Positions 3,612 to 17,350 of a DNA stretch of 64,000 nucleotides are shown one piece after another; positions within the stretch are counted from its first letter, which is position 1, and each line of letters opens with the position of its first letter. The notes under the pieces are model-generated. The model had not been told where the DNA came from. It was given only the letters and a program-made list of their open reading frames with translations, and did not search any database. This DNA comes from a halophilic archaeon SHRA6 (lineage in GTDB: Archaea; Halobacteriota; Halobacteria; Halobacteriales; Haloferacaceae), in NCBI GenBank assembly GCA_005239175.1, contig SOPS01000001.1:1116001-1180000 (forward strand). Direction: 5' to 3'. A program made the translations under genes and the position numbers.

Positions 3612-5381
3612 TCAGACAAACTTTCGAACGGTCATATCCAGGGTATCGAGGTCGACGATCGGCGCGTAGCCTGAATCGGGATCGATATTGACACTTCGCT
3701 GGAAGTCAGTTTGTGCCTGCCAGCAGCCGCTGTTTACAGCGAGCACGTTGTGATACTTGCCCCATCCGAGCTTGTGGACGTGCCCCGTGTGAAAGATATC
3801 GGGGATAGTGTCAATCGTCAAATAGTCTTTCACTTCGGGCGCAAGTCGGTTTCGACCGCCGTACTGAGGTGCGACGTGCCGTTTTTTCAATAGCTGGTAC
3901 ATCGCCTTGTGGGGTTCGTCGTAGCTCGCTTTGTCCTCGGGGAGTTCGGCAATAACCTCGTCGAGGGACACGCCGTGGTACATCAGGATCGAGACGTTTT
4001 CGATCGTCACGGTCGCGGGGTTACTGACGATCCGTGGATCGTGGACGTCCATGATCGATCGCAGTTCCTCGTCGAACCCCGGCTGTGGCTCCGCGAGGCG
4101 GACTGCATCGTGGTTGCCCGGAATCATGATGATGTCGAGATCTCCCGGGACCTCTTTGAGATACTCCGCAAACTGTTCATATTGCTCGTAGATGTCGATG
4201 ATGTCGAGTTCCTCGTCTTGGTTCGGATAGACGCCGACACCTTCGACCATGTCGCCGGCGATGAGGAGGTACTCGACGTGTTGGGCCTCGGCGGTGTGAA
4301 GCCAGTCGGTAAAGCGGTGCCACGCCGCGGCCATGAACTCTTGGCTGCCAACGTGAACATCTGAGATGAGCGCGGCCTGCACGTGTCGATCGGCCGTACT
4401 TGGACGGTACGTCCGCGGAATATCGGGGACGTGGAGTGAATCGACGAAGAGAATTCCCGCATCATCTGAAAGCCGACCCTGTACCGCAACACACTCGTCG
4501 AGGAGGAGTTCTTCGACCAACTCAGCGATGGGTTTGTCTTTCGTTACGAGACACGGAAACGTCCCGGTGGTGTCTTCGAGTTCGATGAGCCAGTGGCCGC
4601 TTTTTGTCGAGCGAATGTCGTTAACGAGTCCAATCATCTCGGCTTCGCTCCCCCCAGGCATCTTTTCGATCGCAGTCGCCGGTCGGTGATTGACTCGTCC
4701 TTTCAGAAGCTTTGAGAGCCGTTCGTAGCGGTCCCGAAACGTCCGCACGAACTGTTTGTATTCGCCGGTGCCGGTGCTTCTGCCAGTCATGTCGTTTGTG
4801 ATCGAGAGCGATCGCTTCGAGGGATCTGATGACGATCGATCGAAGGATTCACTGCGGATTTCGGATTCGGACGCGGTGGGTTGGTTCGACGGACGGGTCG
4901 GATCAGCTGGTTTCGAGTTATCTGGTTGCGAATCGTTCGATTTTGAATCATCCGAACGCAACGCATCCGGGCTTGAATCATCGAGACTCAGCGCATCCGG
5001 ACTCGAATTATCCGAACTCAACGCATCCGGACTCGAATCATCCGAACTCAACGCATCCGAACGCATTGCATCCTGGCTCGAGCCATTTGATCGAGCACGC
5101 TGAGAGTGGTTCTCGGTCGAGATGTCCGACTCCTCAGTTGAATCGTTCTGTGTCGTCGCTGCGGAAACCCCCGGCGGATCCGGAACTGGATCGTCCGCAA
5201 GGATCGATCGAACGTCCTCGGCGGTGATCCGGAGCACTTCGTCGTCGATCGCCTCAAGAACAACTTCGATCGCGAGTTGGGGATTGTCGGTCCGCGAAAG
5301 CACCGTTACAGCCTCGCGGTCGGCGTTATAGCCGTGGCGAACCAGCTGTTGTACGATACTCGCGGGAGTCTCCGAAGGCAC
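3612..5381 (-). CDS. polD1: DNA polymerase II (PolD) small subunit, DP1
   Basis: This is the proofreading subunit of the archaeal replicative polymerase PolD; its large subunit is encoded at 56274. The C-terminal calcineurin-like phosphoesterase domain shows ISDVHVGSQE, AGDMVEG, IPGNHDA, MYHG and TGHVHK, the metal-binding motifs of the Mre11-like 3'-5' exonuclease. An OB-fold region precedes it (EAEMIGLVNDIRSTKSGHW). I chose the GTG at 5381 because haloarchaeal DP1 proteins begin close to ETPASIVQQL; the frame stays open 84 bases further. Product 589 residues. Between the N-terminal helical domain and the OB fold lies a long Ser/Asp-rich linker with 10-residue repeats. It is divergent from sec11, as expected beside orc1. 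Confidence 0.93.
   Translation of the reverse strand: MPSETPASIVQQLVRHGYNADREAVTVLSRTDNPQLAIEVVLEAIDDEVLRITAEDVRSILADDPVPDPPGVSAATTQNDSTEESDISTENHSQRARSNGSSQDAMRSDALSSDDSSPDALSSDNSSPDALSLDDSSPDALRSDDSKSNDSQPDNSKPADPTRPSNQPTASESEIRSESFDRSSSDPSKRSLSITNDMTGRSTGTGEYKQFVRTFRDRYERLSKLLKGRVNHRPATAIEKMPGGSEAEMIGLVNDIRSTKSGHWLIELEDTTGTFPCLVTKDKPIAELVEELLLDECVAVQGRLSDDAGILFVDSLHVPDIPRTYRPSTADRHVQAALISDVHVGSQEFMAAAWHRFTDWLHTAEAQHVEYLLIAGDMVEGVGVYPNQDEELDIIDIYEQYEQFAEYLKEVPGDLDIIMIPGNHDAVRLAEPQPGFDEELRSIMDVHDPRIVSNPATVTIENVSILMYHGVSLDEVIAELPEDKASYDEPHKAMYQLLKKRHVAPQYGGRNRLAPEVKDYLTIDTIPDIFHTGHVHKLGWGKYHNVLAVNSGCWQAQTDFQRSVNIDPDSGYAPIVDLDTLDMTVRKFV
4948..5070. repeat. 30-bp tandem repeat encoding the PolD1 linker
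   Basis: About four copies of a 30-bp unit (core catccggactcgaatcatcc) occur in tandem, with a few substitutions between copies. On the coding (reverse) strand each gives a 10-residue Ser/Asp unit of the type ALSSDDSSPD. The frame is preserved throughout. Confidence 0.85.
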
Positions 5382-6489: not shown

Positions 6490-8328
6490 TCAGTTGTCAA
6501 AGCGCGCTTGAACGAACGGCTGAACGTTATCGATGTCGCCGAGCCGCGAGTCCGACAGCAAGACAGCCTCCGTTTCGTCGATCGGAACAGAGAGACTGAT
6601 CTCTTTGGTTCGACCGTATCGGCCCTTCGAAACCACAACCGCGTTGACGATTCCGAGCATGTCCAACTCGGAGATGAGGTCGGTGACGCGGCGCTGGGTG
6701 AGAACGTCCGCATCGAGCTCCTGACAGATCCGCTTGTAGATGTTGAACACCTCGCCCGTGTTGATATTGTGGACGCCGTTCTTCTCGAGCAGGATGATTG
6801 AGAACAGGACAATCTTCGATTGGGTGGGCAGCGTTCGGACAACTTCGACAACTCGATCGAGTTCGATCTTGTCCTGTGCCTGTCGGACGTGTGATTCTAA
6901 CACTGTGTCCTGTTGGTCTCGTTCGGCAAGTTCGCCGGCTGTGCGAAGCAAATCGAGCGCCCGTCGGGCGTCGCCGTGTTCCTGAGCAGCGAACGCTGCA
7001 CAGAGCGGGATCACGTCGTCGGAGAGCGCATTCGATTTGAATGCAATGTCTGCACGGTGTTGGAGGATATCTCGGAGTTGGGTCGCATCGTACGGAGGGA
7101 AGACGATCTCTTCCTCACCGAGTGAGGATTTAACACGTGGATCGAGAAAGTCCGTGAACTTGAGGTCGTTCGAGATCCCCATAATCGAGATTCGTGAGTT
7201 AGTCAGCTCTGAATTCATCCGCGAGAGGTTATACAGCGTGTCGTCGCCGGACTTTTCGACGAGTTTGTCGATCTCATCGAGCATGATAACGACGACGCGT
7301 TCGCGGTAGTCGACGGCGTCGAAAAACGTCGAGTACACCCGATCGGTTGGCCAGCCGGTCATCGGGACCGGCTCCATTTCGGCCCGGTCGGATTCGAGTT
7401 CGTCGATTCGCTGCTCCAGTGCGGACAGCGAGTCGAACGATCGATCAATATGGTCGAACTCAACAGTATCAAACTCAGTATTATTTTCGGTTATATTGTC
7501 GAGCCGCTCGCTGAGGTACTCAAGTCGCGATTCGATCGCCGCTCGATTTTGATCGATTATTTTGTTTGCCAGCTGGGCGAGGACACGATATTGGGTGTCA
7601 GTCACCTCGCAGTTGATGTACTGAACCTCACACGGCACGTCGTATTTTTGTGACGTGGATTCGAGCTCCTGGCTGACGAACTTCGCACTCGCTGTTTTTC
7701 CGGTCCCCGTCTTTCCGTAAATAAGAATGTTTGATGGGGTTTCTCCGCGGAGGGCGGAGACGAGAATCGTCGCCATCTGGTTGATTTGATCGTTCCGGTG
7801 CGGTAACTCATGAGGGGTGTACGAGGGACGAAGGACCTCTTTGTTTTCGAAGATCGGTTCACCGGCGAGGAGATCGTCAAACAGACCTTTGTTTTCAGAC
7901 TCCTCGTCAGTCTCTAACATTTTGTTAAAATCGAATCGGGTCGAGGATCGATCTCGACTGTGGCTGGTATCTGCGTTAGGAGGATTGTTCACGCCAGTCT
8001 CTGAGGTATCTATGACATCGGTCTCCGCAGTCTCTGAGGAAGCTGTGACATCGGTCTCTGTAGTCTCTGAGGTGTTTGTGATATCGGTCTCCGTCGTGTT
8101 TGAGTCGCCAGTATCACCAGTCTCAGTGTCTTCTCCCCCAGTGTCGCTCTGTTGAGCCATCCACGTCTCGATATCTTCATCAGGTTTGGTGCGGTCGGCT
8201 TCATGTGGATCGCCTGATTCATCGATATCTTGGATGACCGTATCTCCGGTGGTATTGTGCGATTGTGAAGACTCTTGTTCAGAGCTCGGAGGCGGCGTAT
8301 CGTCGTCTTTTGTATCGTTGTCGGTCAT
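6490..8328 (-). CDS. orc1: Orc1/Cdc6 replication initiator
   Basis: This AAA+ initiator recognises ORB elements and opens the origin. It has Walker A YGKTGTGKTAS (about residue 205), Walker B VVIMLDEIDKL, a sensor-like MGISNDLKF segment, and a C-terminal winged-helix region. At 612 residues it is much longer than the roughly 400-residue core because of an acidic, Thr/Ser-rich N-terminal extension of about 150 residues with 11-residue repeats. The start at 8328 is the longest; a methionine near residue 136 would give a family-sized protein, so the extension needs checking. The gene is transcribed away from the origin that lies directly upstream, the classic arrangement for an origin-linked orc1. 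Confidence 0.94.
   Translation of the reverse strand: MTDNDTKDDDTPPPSSEQESSQSHNTTGDTVIQDIDESGDPHEADRTKPDEDIETWMAQQSDTGGEDTETGDTGDSNTTETDITNTSETTETDVTASSETAETDVIDTSETGVNNPPNADTSHSRDRSSTRFDFNKMLETDEESENKGLFDDLLAGEPIFENKEVLRPSYTPHELPHRNDQINQMATILVSALRGETPSNILIYGKTGTGKTASAKFVSQELESTSQKYDVPCEVQYINCEVTDTQYRVLAQLANKIIDQNRAAIESRLEYLSERLDNITENNTEFDTVEFDHIDRSFDSLSALEQRIDELESDRAEMEPVPMTGWPTDRVYSTFFDAVDYRERVVVIMLDEIDKLVEKSGDDTLYNLSRMNSELTNSRISIMGISNDLKFTDFLDPRVKSSLGEEEIVFPPYDATQLRDILQHRADIAFKSNALSDDVIPLCAAFAAQEHGDARRALDLLRTAGELAERDQQDTVLESHVRQAQDKIELDRVVEVVRTLPTQSKIVLFSIILLEKNGVHNINTGEVFNIYKRICQELDADVLTQRRVTDLISELDMLGIVNAVVVSKGRYGRTKEISLSVPIDETEAVLLSDSRLGDIDNVQPFVQARFDN
7996..8094. repeat. 33-bp tandem repeat in orc1 N-terminal extension
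   Basis: Three copies of a 33-bp unit (starting agtctctgag at 7996, 8029 and 8062) occur in tandem. On the coding strand they give 11-residue units of the type TETDVTASSET. Copies have diverged by several bases but keep the frame. Confidence 0.85.
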
Positions 8329-8345: not shown

Positions 8346-8369
8346 CAACCCCCTTGTTTCAAGTGGAGT
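8346..8369 (-). other. ORB 1 (origin recognition box, orc1-proximal)
   Basis: On the reverse strand this reads actccacttgaaacaagg followed by a G run. It matches the ORB pattern TTCCAnnTGAAACAAAGGGG with one base missing in the A tract. It lies 17 bases upstream of the orc1 start codon, so Orc1 binding here could also control its own gene (inference). Confidence 0.75.
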
Positions 8370-8559: not shown

Positions 8560-8591
8560 ACCCCCCCACCCCTTTGTTTCGGGTGGAACAC
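8560..8591 (-). other. ORB 2, left of unwinding element
   Basis: On the reverse strand the element reads tgttccacccgaaacaaagg followed by a G-rich tail of 11 bases. The long G run is the typical G-string of haloarchaeal ORBs. It faces away from the AT-rich tract and forms an inverted pair with ORB 3. Confidence 0.88.
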
Positions 8592-8599
8592 CCTCCAAG

Positions 8600-8755
8600 A
8601 GAGGGTCGAATTATACCGCTGTTTGTATTTAATTAGGAAAACTTTATATGATATACTGTACAACAGTAACCGCGTCACAGGAAGACACTATATTACATAG
8701 TAGTATATTCTTATTTTTATTAGAGATCTAGTGATAAATACTCCTCGGTGCTACC
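8600..8755. other. AT-rich duplex-unwinding element
   Basis: The stretch is markedly richer in A and T than anything around it (for example tatttaattaggaaaactt and tattcttatttttattag). It lies between the divergent ORBs 2 and 3. This is where initial melting would be expected, by analogy with mapped archaeal origins. Confidence 0.8.
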
Positions 8756-8774
8756 CGGGCCGTCTACTTGTTCG

Positions 8775-8804
8775 TGTTCCAGTTGAAACAAAGGGGTGGG
8801 GGGG
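8775..8804 (+). other. ORB 3, right of unwinding element
   Basis: The element reads tgttccagttgaaacaaagg followed by a G-rich tail (gg, t, then seven g). It is the best-conserved ORB here and the inverted partner of ORB 2. Its first 22 bases from gttcc recur exactly at 14159. Confidence 0.9.
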
Positions 8805-10134: not shown

Positions 10135-10878
10135 ATGCCGCACCAGTGTACCAACTGCGGCCGAGCGTTCCCCGACGGCTCCAAGGAGATGCTATCGGGG
10201 TGTCCCGACTGTGGCGGCAACAAGTTTCAGTTCCATCCTGGCTCGATCGACGATCTCAACGCCTCTTCGGACCCCGATCCAGCGCCCAACACCACTCCTC
10301 AACCTGATCCAACCGACAGCCGGCAATCTGGCTCTGGCGAGTCATCCCCACCTGAAAGCCCTGAAACGACAACTGACTCGACGCAGACGACTGCTTCTGA
10401 CTCTAACACCCAAGCAGCCAACGCTGTTACAGAAGATACTCCCCAAGCAGCCAACGCTGTTACAGAAGATAGCGCTCAAGCGGCCAACGCTGTCAAAGAG
10501 GATAGCACTCAAGCGGCCAACGCTATCAAAGAGGATAGCACTCAAGCGGACAACGATGTTAAAGAAGATAGCGCTCAGGCGAGTGCAAGATCGGATGTCG
10601 TCTCACCTGGGGAACTCGAGGCGGCAAAAGCGACACCACCTGAGGGACCACCGAGTAACTCAGCCGTAGACGACGGGGACGCCGATCGTCCCGACATTGA
10701 AGAACTCAGAAACGAACTCAACGAGCAGTTCGAGAGCATCAAGATTCTCAATCCCGGCCAGTACGAAATTAACCTCATGGAGTTGTACGATCGCGACGAG
10801 TACATCATCTCGCTTCGCGAGGACGGCCGGTATGTCATTGAAGTCCCGGATGCGTGGGGCGTTACCGATCGCGAGTGA
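10135..10878 (+). CDS. oapC: OapC/ArvC zinc-ribbon protein with repeat linker
   Basis: The 247-residue product starts with a zinc ribbon (CTNCGRAF and CPDCGGNKFQF, residues 4-32). It ends with a conserved domain from about residue 183 (DIEELRNELNEQFESIKILN to VPDAWGV) that looks like a small sheet-rich module. The long middle part is low complexity and contains five tandem 11-residue units of the type QAANAVKEDST. Ribbon and C-terminal domain match the OapC/ArvC family; the repeat linker is specific to this genome as far as I can tell. It is the last gene of the oapABC operon. Confidence 0.88.
   Translation: MPHQCTNCGRAFPDGSKEMLSGCPDCGGNKFQFHPGSIDDLNASSDPDPAPNTTPQPDPTDSRQSGSGESSPPESPETTTDSTQTTASDSNTQAANAVTEDTPQAANAVTEDSAQAANAVKEDSTQAANAIKEDSTQADNDVKEDSAQASARSDVVSPGELEAAKATPPEGPPSNSAVDDGDADRPDIEELRNELNEQFESIKILNPGQYEINLMELYDRDEYIISLREDGRYVIEVPDAWGVTDRE
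10411..10575. repeat. 33-bp tandem repeat in oapC linker
   Basis: Five consecutive 33-bp units begin at 10411, 10444, 10477, 10510 and 10543 with caagcrgccaacgctrt, the last more diverged, and a partial sixth follows. Each encodes 11 residues in frame. Confidence 0.92.
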
Positions 10879-10892
10879 CCCTCTTGGCCTCA

Positions 10893-10916
10893 CTTACTCC
10901 TTTGTTTCCTGTGGAT
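10893..10916 (-). other. ORB-like element 4 (between oapC and lysC)
   Basis: On the reverse strand it reads gatccacaggaaacaaagga, close to the ORB core but with changes at the 5' half and no long G run. It lies 15 bases after the oapC stop and has the same orientation as ORBs 1 and 2. Confidence 0.65.
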
Positions 10917-11186
10917 CTACTCGAGATACATAATAACTGTGTGTACTGGTTTGCAGACGAAATAAAGGGGGTTGACATTGAGTCTCGAAGACAGATGATT
11001 TCAGTTACAATCATTAACTATGTGTCACCGGATCGTTGCCCAGGAGAGCTCATAGAGTTTGCCAAGATGAGCCTCGCGCAGTAGCTACTCCGGCTGGAAT
11101 GTGTGAAATCGGCAACCGTTGGACAAGTGGACAACGTTATCCGGTTGCCCGCGCTACGGTGGCGCATGACCGAGTATATCGCACTT
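10917..11186. other. intergenic region upstream of lysC
   Basis: The gap between oapC and lysC is about 350 bases. After the ORB-like element I see no gene. A hairpin-forming inverted repeat (ggcaaccg at 11111-11118, cggttgcc at 11142-11149) and a possible TATA box (gagtatatc, about 11171-11179) are visible. Confidence 0.5.
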
Positions 11187-13208: not shown

Positions 13209-13376
13209 GTTTTCGATCGGCATCTCAACGCCGTCAGTTTTCGATCGGCATCTCAACGCCGTCAGTTTTCGATCGGCATCTCAACGCCGTCAGTTTTCGA
13301 TCGGCATCTCAACGCCGTCAGTTTTCGATCGGCATCTCCACGCGGTTAGTTTTCGATCGCCATCTCAACGCCGTCA
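13209..13376. repeat. 28-bp tandem array at the purO 3' end
   Basis: Six units start at 13209, 13237, 13265, 13293, 13321 and 13349 (core gttttcgatcggcatctcaa). The first four are identical and the last two carry a few changes. The sixth unit is the 3' end of purO including its stop codon region, so the other five look like tandem copies of the gene end. There are no unique spacers, so it is not a CRISPR array. Confidence 0.95.
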
Positions 13377-13933
13377 GCATCGACAGTTACGCCCGCAGCA
13401 CAGACTGCGTGTTCGAACGCCGCCTCGTAGACTTCGCTTGCGGCTTCGGTCGCATCTGTGGCTTCGAAATCGTACGCTCGTGGGCTGTCGTGTTCGTACG
13501 TCGCTACAAGCGTGGGTTCGGTTACTGTTTCGACGATCAGCGCGTCGTGGCGGACGATCGCGATCGTCGCGTTGGCTTCGGTCACCACGCCGGCAATCCG
13601 CGGGGTATTGTAGTCGTCTTTTTCGAAATCCAACGACAGCAGGCTCAACGCCAGCGCGTCTCGAGCGGGATAGCCCATATCGATCTTTTCGGCGATCGGA
13701 TCCACGTGTGAGCCGTTCCCAACGATCCCAACAGACTCCCTGTCGCCAGGAGGAGTCGCAGTTCGCACGCAGTTGTACGAGACGTAGGGATTGTCGGTTT
13801 CCGGCGCATCGGGAGTCGGGCCCACGGTCAGCGTTCCCTCCCGGTTGCGAATCTGTCTGTTCGGGAACGATCGAGAGGAGACACGATACGCACCGATGCC
13901 GGGTCCGACGACAACAAATCGTCCGATGTACAT
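13346..13933 (-). CDS. purO: IMP cyclohydrolase, archaeal PurO type
   Basis: PurO performs the last step of IMP synthesis, closing FAICAR to IMP, in archaea that lack the bacterial PurH cyclohydrolase. The start [11 protein letters not shown] and the following [13 protein letters not shown] are characteristic of the family; NPYVSYNC and [18 protein letters not shown] also fit. At 195 residues it is family-sized. The ATG at 13933 is used; five extra codons upstream are open. The C-terminal GVEMAIEN is encoded by the last unit of the 28-bp array. Confidence 0.92.
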
Positions 13934-14047: not shown

Positions 14048-14120
14048 AGTCCCATGGGGTAGTGGCCAATCCTGTTGCCTTCTGGGGGCAACGACCCAGG
14101 TTCGAATCCTGGTGGGACTA
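14048..14120 (+). tRNA. tRNA-Gln (anticodon CTG)
   Basis: The 73-base cloverleaf has a 7-bp acceptor stem (agtccca with tgggact) and discriminator A. The anticodon stem ttgcc/ggcaa encloses loop ttctggg with anticodon CTG, and the T arm is ccagg-ttcgaat-cctgg. CCA is not encoded. A pyrimidine run (cttttaaac) follows directly and may terminate transcription. Confidence 0.95.
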
Positions 14121-14157
14121 CTTTTAAACTGCCGCTGTAACTACCGGGCTATAGAGA

Positions 14158-14181
14158 GTTCCAGTTGAAACAAAGGGGTTT
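14158..14181 (+). other. outlying ORB element beside tRNA-Gln
   Basis: From 14159 the sequence gttccagttgaaacaaaggg continues to match ORB 3 over 22 bases in total, then diverges (tttagtag instead of a G run). It lies 38 bases after tRNA-Gln and 5.4 kb from the origin core, just past the 3' end of cgi121. Confidence 0.85.
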
Positions 14182-14196: not shown

Positions 14197-14751
14197 TCAC
14201 TTCGAGACGTCGAGCAGTGCGACCCGCTCACGGACGATCGCGTCGCGATCACCATCGACGAGATCCAACTCCGAATCCTCGATCGAAAAGAACCGATCGA
14301 CCAATGCAGCATCGTATGACCCAATCACGTCGGCGGGTTCGTACAGCGACTCGAGCGCATCGATCGCTGCATCCACACCACTGTCATCGGTAGTTTCTGG
14401 GCCTGACGACGATTCGCTCTTACGCCTTTCCACGACAATAAACACGATCGACTGTGGATCCACTCCCTCACCAACCCCCATTTCAAGTGCATCGGAAATC
14501 TGGCGTCTCCCGGCTGCGTACAGTAAGATTTCGACGGCCGGATCGCGGGCGATCGCCTCGTTTCGATCGATCGCTCGTTCGGCCAGCTCAACTGCTCGCC
14601 GCAGGTGTTCCTCGGAGGTCACGTACTGAGCGTTGACAGCCTGAATAACGGTTTCAGTTCTCGTTGCGATCTGCTCGATCGATTCTAAAAACGCATCTAG
14701 ATCGTCAATCGTTGCCGCTCCAGCGAGCAGTTTTGGCTCCCGTGCGATCAT
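14197..14751 (-). CDS. cgi121: KEOPS complex subunit Cgi121
   Basis: The 184-residue protein fits the Cgi121 subunit of the KEOPS complex, which makes the universal t6A modification on ANN-decoding tRNAs. Supporting segments are AVNAQYVTSEEHLRRAVELAERA, the IARDPAVEILLYAAGRRQI motif and the DALEMGVGEG turn, in the order seen in archaeal Cgi121. It also carries a Ser/Glu-rich insertion before the C-terminal helix. It is directly downstream of hel308 (28 bases), an arrangement shared with other haloarchaea. Confidence 0.88.
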   Translation of the reverse strand: MIAREPKLLAGAATIDDLDAFLESIEQIATRTETVIQAVNAQYVTSEEHLRRAVELAERAIDRNEAIARDPAVEILLYAAGRRQISDALEMGVGEGVDPQSIVFIVVERRKSESSSGPETTDDSGVDAAIDALESLYEPADVIGSYDAALVDRFFSIEDSELDLVDGDRDAIVRERVALLDVSK

Positions 14752-14779: not shown

Positions 14780-17350
14780 TCATTCAAAATCACCAAGGCT
14801 CGACTGATCGGGAGAGTCACCGGTTGCGGCGTCGCTCGAAGCTGCGGACTCAGTAGATGTTGCTGTGTCCGCCGACGTCTCGGGTAGCTCAGCTTCACGT
14901 ATGCCGTCCATTGATGGGTCCTGCCGGCCGACGTTTGCCAGGATCTTTTCGGCGGTCTTCTGTCGACCCCGAAGCGACGCCAACACGCGCCGTTTGTCGG
15001 CCTCGCGCAGGTCCGATCGGCTCGTAATTCCCGCCTCGTACAGCCGTCGAGCGCGCTTTCGACCCACTCCCCGAACGCCGGCGAGGTCGAGTAGCTCCTC
15101 GCGCACGCCGTACTCGATCCGTTTTTTCGCCTCGCGGATCGCCACGTTCGACCCCAACCCGAGCGTTCCCGCAAGCTCTTCGGCCGCCCCGAGAAGCCAC
15201 TCAGCGGTTTCGACCTTACCGCGGATGTCTCCGGGGCCAACGCCGTAGCGCTCGGTAATTCGATCCTCGTCCACCTCGAGCGCCCAATCTTCCAGCAGCT
15301 TTGCGGTTTTTAGCGCTGAGAGCCACTCCTCAAAGCGAACGTCTTCGAACTCGGAGGGAGTCGAGCCCAACAGTTCCGACTCGCGCTCGTAGCACAGTTC
15401 GGTGTACGTCTCTTTGTCCCCGGACTTGAGGTACAGCTCGTACATGTCGGGGGTTCGACTCACGAGGTGATACAGGCCCAGCGGTGTCGGCTTCGCTGAC
15501 TCGACGTCGGAGCTATCTTGATCTCTCGGTTCACTATGGGCCTCATCTTCATCTCTCGGTTCACTATGGGCCTCATCTTCATCTCTCGGTTCACTATGGG
15601 CCTCATCTTCATCGCCCGGCCCTCTGTCGGGCTGACTTTCATCGCCTTGTTCATTCTGTCCCGATCCGTTGGTCTCCGATCGGAGTTCTCCAGCCGAAAC
15701 GAATCCCGTCGGTTCGCTTTCTTGTCCGGTTCCAGCTCCCTTCGATCGGCCATACCGCCCAGTGGCTCCATCTCCCGACTCGGCCGCACGGAGCCCATCG
15801 ATGATCTCCGCAGCGCTCATCGGATCGAGATAGAGCCGCGAGACGGTGTGGCCAATCGACGTTGCACTCAGGGTATCGCCGTCACGCTCGATGAATTCGT
15901 TCGCATCGAGATACGCCAATACGGCGTCTGTGACCTGCGCAAGTCGATCGGTGGCCCCGCTCGCTTCCGCTTGCGCCGCGTATAGCGTTCCGTCGAGAAA
16001 CTCCAACAACCCGTCACGGGTCGTTGCGAACCCGGAGGCGATCGTCGCGAGTACGTGCGTTCGCAGCGCGGGTTCGGCGGCGAGTTTCGAGCGGACGGGT
16101 TCGGGCTCTGCCCAGATGTAGCGATCGAACAGCTCGTCCATCTCGTCGGCGTTTTTCGCCAGCAAGACGGCTTCGCCGTAGGGATCGAGGCCGGGACGGC
16201 CGGCCCGCCCACACATCTGGTGGATCTCGAGGACGTCAAGCGGCTTCATCCCGCCGAACTCGCCGTCATAGCGCCGCCAGTCGCGGACGATCACCCGTCG
16301 GCTCGGCGTGTTGACGCCGGCGGCCAGCGTCGGGGTGGCACAGATCGTCTTCAGCAACCGATCGCGGAAGGCGTCTTCGACGATCGAGCGGTGTTCGGCG
16401 GCCAATCCCGCGTGATGAAACGCCGCGCCGCGCTCGACGGTCGCCGCCAGGTCGTCGCTGGTTTCGGTATCCGAGACGTCTCTGATGTCGTCGGCCAACG
16501 CAGCCAGTGCATCTCGCTCATCGTCGTCCAGATAGCGATCGGTCACCTCAGTCATCCGCCTGGCCGCCGATTCGGCGTTCCGCCGGGAGTTGACGAACAC
16601 GAGCGTCGAGCCGCCGTCTTCGAGGGTATCTCCCACGATCGCCGGCGCCTGTCTCCCACCGGACTCAACTGCTACCTCGGTCTGGGTTCCGTCATCGAAG
16701 TTGATCGCGTTGCCGAAGTGAACACCCATCCGGAGGTCGATCGGCCGCCACTCCGATTGAACCAACGCGGCGTCGAGCCAGTCGGCAATCTCCGCAGCAT
16801 TGCCCACTGTCGCCGACAGCGCGACCATTTGCACGCCGGGGTTCACCGTTCTGAGCTTCGCGAGGGTTACTTCGAGGGTCGGCCCGCGGTGGCGATCGTC
16901 CACGAGGTGGACCTCGTCGGCGACCACACAGGCCAGATCGTCGATCCACGGCGCGTTGTTGCGCACCAGCGAGTCGACCTTCTCGGAGGTCGCGACGATG
17001 ATGTCCCGGCTCGCGAGCCACTCGCCGCTGGCCTCGTAGTTGCCCGTCGAGACCCCCACTGAGATTCCGTACTCCTCCCACCGTTCGAACTCGGCCTTTT
17101 TTTCGCTCGCGAGCGCCCGTAGCGGGACAATATAGAGGGCCTTGCCGCCGCGTTCGATCGCCGACAGCATCGCCAACTCGGCAATGAGCGTCTTCCCAGA
17201 TGCGGTCGGGACCGAGGCAACCAGGCTCTTGCCGTCGGTCAGTCCCTTCTCGACGGCTTCCGCCTGTGGCGGATACAGCGATTCGATCCCCTCCTCTTGG
17301 AGGTGCGTTGGGACCCCCGAGGGCAATCCGGGGATCTCCGAGGGCTTCAT
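14780..17350 (-). CDS. hel308: ATP-dependent DNA helicase Hel308
   Basis: This 856-residue superfamily 2 helicase acts on stalled forks (3'-5' unwinding). Motifs: Q-motif region [13 protein letters not shown], Walker A PTASGKTL (about residue 48), DEVH box, SATVGN, HHAGL, and motif [12 protein letters not shown]. The C-terminal part includes a helix-hairpin-helix ([17 protein letters not shown]). The family is usually about 720-750 residues; the extra length is an acidic insertion at about residues 540-620 with three perfect 10-residue repeats of type [10 protein letters not shown]. The start [10 protein letters not shown] is typical. It is upstream of cgi121 and probably co-transcribed with it. 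Confidence 0.95.
15521..15610. repeat. 30-bp perfect tandem repeat in hel308
   Basis: Three copies of a 30-bp unit (starting atctctcggttcactatggg) at 15521, 15551 and 15581 are identical base for base. Lack of silent changes means a very recent expansion. Each copy adds ten residues to the acidic insertion. Confidence 0.95.

Follow-up and report, generated by a model that had tools for sequence, protein, structure and literature searches.

The window (the whole stretch of DNA analyzed, 64,000 nucleotides from the halophilic archaeon SHRA6) carries the origin oriC1 together with orc1 (6490..8328, minus strand), which encodes a Cdc6/Orc1 initiator with AAA+ and winged-helix regions and matches to Pfam Cdc6_C and Cdc6_lid. 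The core of oriC1 comprises a right-hand ORB with the extended G-string GGGGTGGGGGG (8776..8797, plus strand) and an inverted partner (8568..8589, minus strand) across an AT-rich stretch (8590..8775; 62% AT, with 74% in its best 100 bp) that is the presumed unwinding element. A blastn search of this oriC1 against plasmid records, run with an integrated plasmid origin in mind, returned no matches. Another ORB, TCCACTTGAAACAAGGGGG (8349..8367, minus strand), is located 20 bp before the orc1 start codon. Many relatives have an equivalent ahead of orc1, and the site is a possible candidate for autoregulation of orc1 by Orc1. Between oapC and the gene for aspartate kinase is a second satellite, a weaker divergent pair whose left half (10897..10915, minus strand) and right half (TGCAGACGAAATAAAGGGG, 10952..10970, plus strand, 2 mismatches) are separated by a gap of 36 bp. 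The conserved gene that precedes tRNA-Gln has a 28-bp tandem repeat, present six times (13209-13377), at its 3′ end, and further in-frame repeats occur in DP1 (4945-5081), oapC (10407-10581), and hel308 (15515-15643).

The site considered here (14158..14179, plus strand) lies between a conserved 5′ neighbor, the gene for tRNA-Gln(CTG) (14048..14121, plus strand; identified by ARAGORN and synteny), and a convergent neighbor, cgi121 (14197..14751, minus strand; a KEOPS subunit, Pfam PF08617 (CGI-121), E 7e-10, and synteny), which points its 3′ end toward the ORB and has its stop codon at 14197. The 22-mer GTTCCAGTTGAAACAAAGGGGT occurs in two exact copies, at 8776-8797 in the right-hand oriC1 ORB and at 14158-14179, both on the plus strand, and the expectation from dinucleotide shuffles is 0.00; the shared sequence stops at 14179, which leaves 14180-14181 outside the identity. 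The motif proper, TCCANNNGAAACRAAGGGG (14160-14178), has 0 mismatches to the origin ORB core. Genome-wide ORB counts are the product of pattern searches, and in the 3.36-Mb genome exact copies of the 15-mer core TTGAAACAAAGGGGT are limited to these two places, with two further sites at oriC1 among the next best matches. The distance from the right-hand oriC1 ORB is 5.38 kb. A first-pass annotation had described a 22-bp identity to an origin ORB at 5.4 kb, had judged a chance match very unlikely, and had remarked on a missing long G run, and all of these points hold; the case against chance is strengthened by conservation of the position across two families. As to the features that mark ORBs of the oriC1 family, the site has the core TCCANNNGAAACRAAGGGG and lacks the halophile-specific extended G-string after GGGGT, reading GGGGTTTAG where origin ORBs read GGGGTGGGGG. 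It stands as a single full ORB with no inverted full partner at origin spacing, no AT-rich element is found near it (53% AT in the best 100 bp, compared with 74% in oriC1), and its neighbors are tRNA-Gln and cgi121 rather than the orc/cdc6 gene that adjoins an active origin.

Among 80 named loci examined, 54 contain tRNA-Gln(CTG) genes, and an ORB with at most 1 mismatch lies within 200 nt on the 3′ side of the tRNA gene in 38 of these 54, compared with a mean of 0.015 for 200 column-shuffled motifs; none of the 54 has one on the 5′ side. The ORB mostly lies 38-56 nt past the tRNA end (38-52 nt in most genera), and it is found in Haloferax (7/7), Natrialba (4/4), Halonotius (3/3), Halorubrum (7/8), and, in inverted orientation, Haladaptatus. 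A strict pattern of tRNA end plus ORB fits 111 of 392 genomes of the order and none with the reversed-pattern control, and so the match, far from being absent from all relatives, recurs beside this tRNA, where the first-pass annotation had proposed to look for it. A second family, which appears from the named loci to be Natrialbaceae, accounts for 76 of 95 genomes under the strict pattern (a manual count), and a relaxed check of tRNA flanks adds nine genomes, for about 85 of 95; in nine genomes of this family first scored as lacking the ORB it is present in all nine, with the exact core in one and one base changed in the others. In the family that includes Haloarcula, only one genome fits the strict pattern. 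In the sister species, Halalkalirubrum salinum, 18 of the 19 motif bases are retained beside a spacer that has diverged.

The arrangement between convergent tRNA-Gln and cgi121 seen here also occurs in Haloferax, Halorubrum, and Halonotius. Where insertions have split the two genes, the ORB is found beside the tRNA in Natrialba, Natronococcus, Natronorubrum, Natrinema, and Halobaculum, and beside cgi121 in Halegenticoccus, Halobium, Halobonum, Natronocalculus, and Halobellus clavatus. A scan of cgi121 loci in related genera found an ORB-like motif at the 3′ end of the gene in about half, nearly always in the same orientation relative to it. Halegenticoccus tardaugens has two ORB-like sites about 1.1 kb apart (L040:10549 and 11696), at the cgi121 3′ end and 3′ of tRNA-Gln. 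Several origin-proximal genera are without the tRNA-Gln/cgi121 element, which is therefore not essential.

In most relatives the tRNA-Gln ORB is preceded, at a gap of exactly 27 bp, by an inverted half-ORB, TTTCNNNTSGA. This half-site is present in 44 of the 51 second-family sequences, 8 of 9 from Halorubrum, and 5 of 25 others, with a shuffle expectation of 0.055. Taken over all satellites, divergent half-sites peak at gaps of 27, 35, and 38 bp, and a tandem control has no peaks. At the tRNA-Gln site of the window the half-site has decayed, its best match having 3 mismatches at a gap of 26.

A survey of 60 unselected genomes with the pattern TCCANNNGAAACRAAGGGG, allowing at most 1 mismatch, gave 351 ORB matches, with reversed-pattern controls near zero. 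These comprise 102 members of origin pairs, 31 matches on other contigs, and 218 further matches on the orc1 contig, 139 of which are within 20 kb of oriC1, and satellites number about four per genome at this threshold. Recurrent contexts include tRNA-Gln/cgi121, the 5′ part of the gene for DP1 (the PolD small subunit), the neighborhood of oapC/ask, and the region just upstream of orc1. The DP1 context is an inverted ORB pair 54-57 bp apart in at least 12 genomes (for example, L122:15147-15222, L130:12188-12263, and L133:7833-7905); the sister species retains one ORB inside the DP1 ORF (L038:19537), and it has been lost from the window. Core and satellite ORBs were grouped by the extended G-string, present in the core alone by that definition, so the result proper is the agreement of the two groups at the other near-invariant positions. 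Satellites relax some positions relative to core ORBs, with C>T at position 11 in 10% and G at position 13 in 43%. Their orientation relative to the fork has a weak outward bias (57/91 outward at 1-20 kb).

Within the organism's own family, the element is present in 19 of 28 surveyed genomes with the landmark less than 200 kb from orc1 or oriC1, and in none of the six where it is farther away (Fisher p about 0.004 at genus level, the only level at which kinship among these related genomes was handled). In the second family, the first genomes measured have the element 4-157 kb from orc1, and it was absent in three genomes at 178-298 kb and also in one genus at about 6-8 kb. The farthest copy is 177 kb from oriC1, and none was seen at or beyond 178 kb in six genomes of the own family and three of the second. 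The first-pass annotation had also considered the site to be part of an extended origin; it does belong to a halo of satellite ORBs, yet such copies lie up to 177 kb away, and the site therefore falls outside the initiation site.

The element tracks the oriC1 core rather than orc1. One genus has orc1 129-1339 kb from tRNA-Gln, and in all five of its genomes measured a distance of 7-19 kb separates the tRNA-Gln ORB from the oriC1 core pair. The simpler reading that the ORB is lost whenever the landmark is far from orc1 was rejected, as nine supposed absences in the second family carry the ORB and, in the most distant genus, it is orc1 that has moved while the oriC1 core stays 7-19 kb away. Separation of oriC1 from orc1 is itself an exception to the usual rule that the two adjoin. 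In one genus, oriC1 cores with an inverted ORB pair and extended G-strings lie more than 100 kb from orc1 (G124, G255, G332, G309, and G130; loci L185-L190, L200-L204, and L220-L224), and core and orc1 are likewise apart in G057, from another genus.

The identity to an origin ORB, the conserved position, and the clustering around oriC1 suggest that the site is a genuine ORB acting as a non-initiating satellite for the oriC1 initiator Orc1, with titration as the likeliest mechanism, a reading that we consider to have an even chance of being correct. Judged from these sequence patterns, it is probably a working accessory site in origin control rather than a chance repeat or a relic. Orc1, the presumed binding protein of the tRNA-Gln/cgi121 ORB, would bind via the winged-helix dyad TTCCANNNGAA together with the short G-run. 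The site would not load MCM, as it has neither the extended G-string nor an AT-rich element, nor an inverted partner at the proper spacing, and satellites should not fire because the extended G-string is required for activity of oriC1 in Haloarcula hispanica (PMC3936714). Duplicated early by forks from oriC1, the satellites could take up Orc1 just after initiation and thereby damp re-initiation, as has been proposed for oriC2D of Haloarcula and is known for bacterial datA. Titration is favored because of this early duplication near the origin, the lack of initiation features, and the published case of oriC2D. At the site in the window it is the likeliest mechanism as a prediction, acting through one full ORB; the weak point of titration is that sites are few, one full ORB being a weak sink compared with the 11 of oriC2D.

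More tentatively, and with somewhat less confidence than for the site itself, oriC1 may be ringed by conserved bipartite satellite Orc1 sites, apparently undescribed, in the form of divergent pairs without the G-string whose halves are 27 or 35-38 bp apart, gaps that differ by about one helical turn. Such sites would bind Orc1 without initiating and would define a regulatory or architectural domain reaching to about 180 kb, in which the tRNA-Gln/cgi121 site would be among the most conserved members.

A role in an origin domain fits the observations nearly as well as titration. In this reading, satellites would organize the origin-proximal chromosome by looping, pairing, or parS-like segregation via Orc1-Orc1 contacts, with no titration of Orc1. 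The clustering within tens of kb of oriC1, the divergent pairs at fixed gaps, which could accommodate two Orc1 molecules, the tie to the oriC1 core when orc1 has separated, and the lack of copies seen at or beyond 178 kb would all be expected of such a system, but the orientation bias is weak (the 57/91 above), conserved contexts are few, and bridging activity of haloarchaeal Orc1 is not known; we regard this explanation as rather unlikely.

Binding by a different protein, such as another Orc/Cdc6 paralogue, with an incidental likeness to oriC1 ORBs, is improbable. Haloarchaea encode many Orc paralogues (PMC7776575), and satellites relax positions 11 and 13 relative to core ORBs, but each Orc family is linked to its own ORB sequence in published work (PMC3528665). 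The near-invariant positions are, moreover, common to satellites and oriC1 ORBs, and the satellites cluster around oriC1. A local role, in which the space between the convergent genes tRNA-Gln and cgi121 would be occupied by Orc1, or by some other protein, as a transcription roadblock or insulator, would suit the gene order here and in Haloferax, Halorubrum, and Halonotius and is held to be equally improbable. Since the ORB is kept with either gene after their separation, its retention needs neither, which argues against a purely local role, as do its spacing of 38-52 nt past the tRNA end in most genera and the position of a related ORB pair within DP1 coding sequence. A terminator role was rejected, as the motif has no T-run and is positioned past the tRNA end. 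The first-pass annotation had suggested a remnant of an earlier or transferred origin. A remnant or dormant origin, derived either from a former copy of oriC1 or from an origin that was transferred and lodged next to a tRNA gene, could draw on the exact ORB identity and on tRNA genes being common integration targets, yet it is very improbable, and a second origin is unlikely as well, given the missing AT-rich element, inverted full ORB, extended G-string, and orc gene, the fact that two families conserve a single small motif beside a diverging spacer, and the retention of the ORB with cgi121 where the tRNA is elsewhere.

If satellites bind Orc1 as the preferred titration reading predicts, Haloferax, which is tractable and has the ORB in 7/7 genomes, would offer, at the origin that is most conserved in archaea, a few mutable sites for studying titration or a role in an origin domain. 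To our knowledge, how archaea prevent their origins from re-firing is largely unknown, and no proposed titration locus in archaea other than oriC2D of Haloarcula hispanica was found in the open-access literature. The published origin surveys found there covered only intergenic regions flanking orc/cdc6 genes (PMC3528665); surveys confined in this way would miss the satellites, as well as those oriC1 cores that one genus has apart from orc1. Open-access PMC literature yielded no description of the tRNA-Gln ORB site, and the satellite sites are apparently new, although ORBs outside an initiation site are already known from oriC2D and from DP1 of Thermococcales.

Several known systems offer comparisons. 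The site has the same TCCANNNGAAACRAAGGGGT core as haloarchaeal oriC1 ORBs and shares 22 bp with an origin ORB here, and differs from them in lacking the extended halophile G-string, an AT-rich element, and an adjacent orc gene. In bacteria, datA of E. coli and the DnaA-box clusters of Bacillus are initiator boxes outside oriC that damp initiation. The likeness to satellites is a functional analogy only, as the initiators are unrelated and datA is a multi-box cluster that works with IHF and DnaA-ATP hydrolysis. The nearest precedent for the satellites is in Thermococcales, where ORBs occur in the DP1 gene (PMC2643942), near but outside oriC; haloarchaea too have an ORB pair within this gene, whereas the tRNA-Gln/cgi121 site is not described in that work. 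In Haloarcula hispanica, oriC2D is an ORB-rich region downstream of cdc6E for which titration of Cdc6E has been proposed (PMC3936714), and it resembles the satellites in having ORBs near an origin, outside the initiation site, that are proposed to bind the initiator without firing (PMC3936714). As in loci of the datA and oriC2D type, the boxes lie outside the minimal origin, but the clustering of multiple boxes that gives those loci high capacity is missing from the site in the window, with its one full ORB, and relatives usually have one ORB and a half-site: oriC2D gathers 11 ORBs immediately next to cdc6E and belongs to a different origin, whereas the satellites are single or paired ORBs distributed over tens of kb around oriC1.
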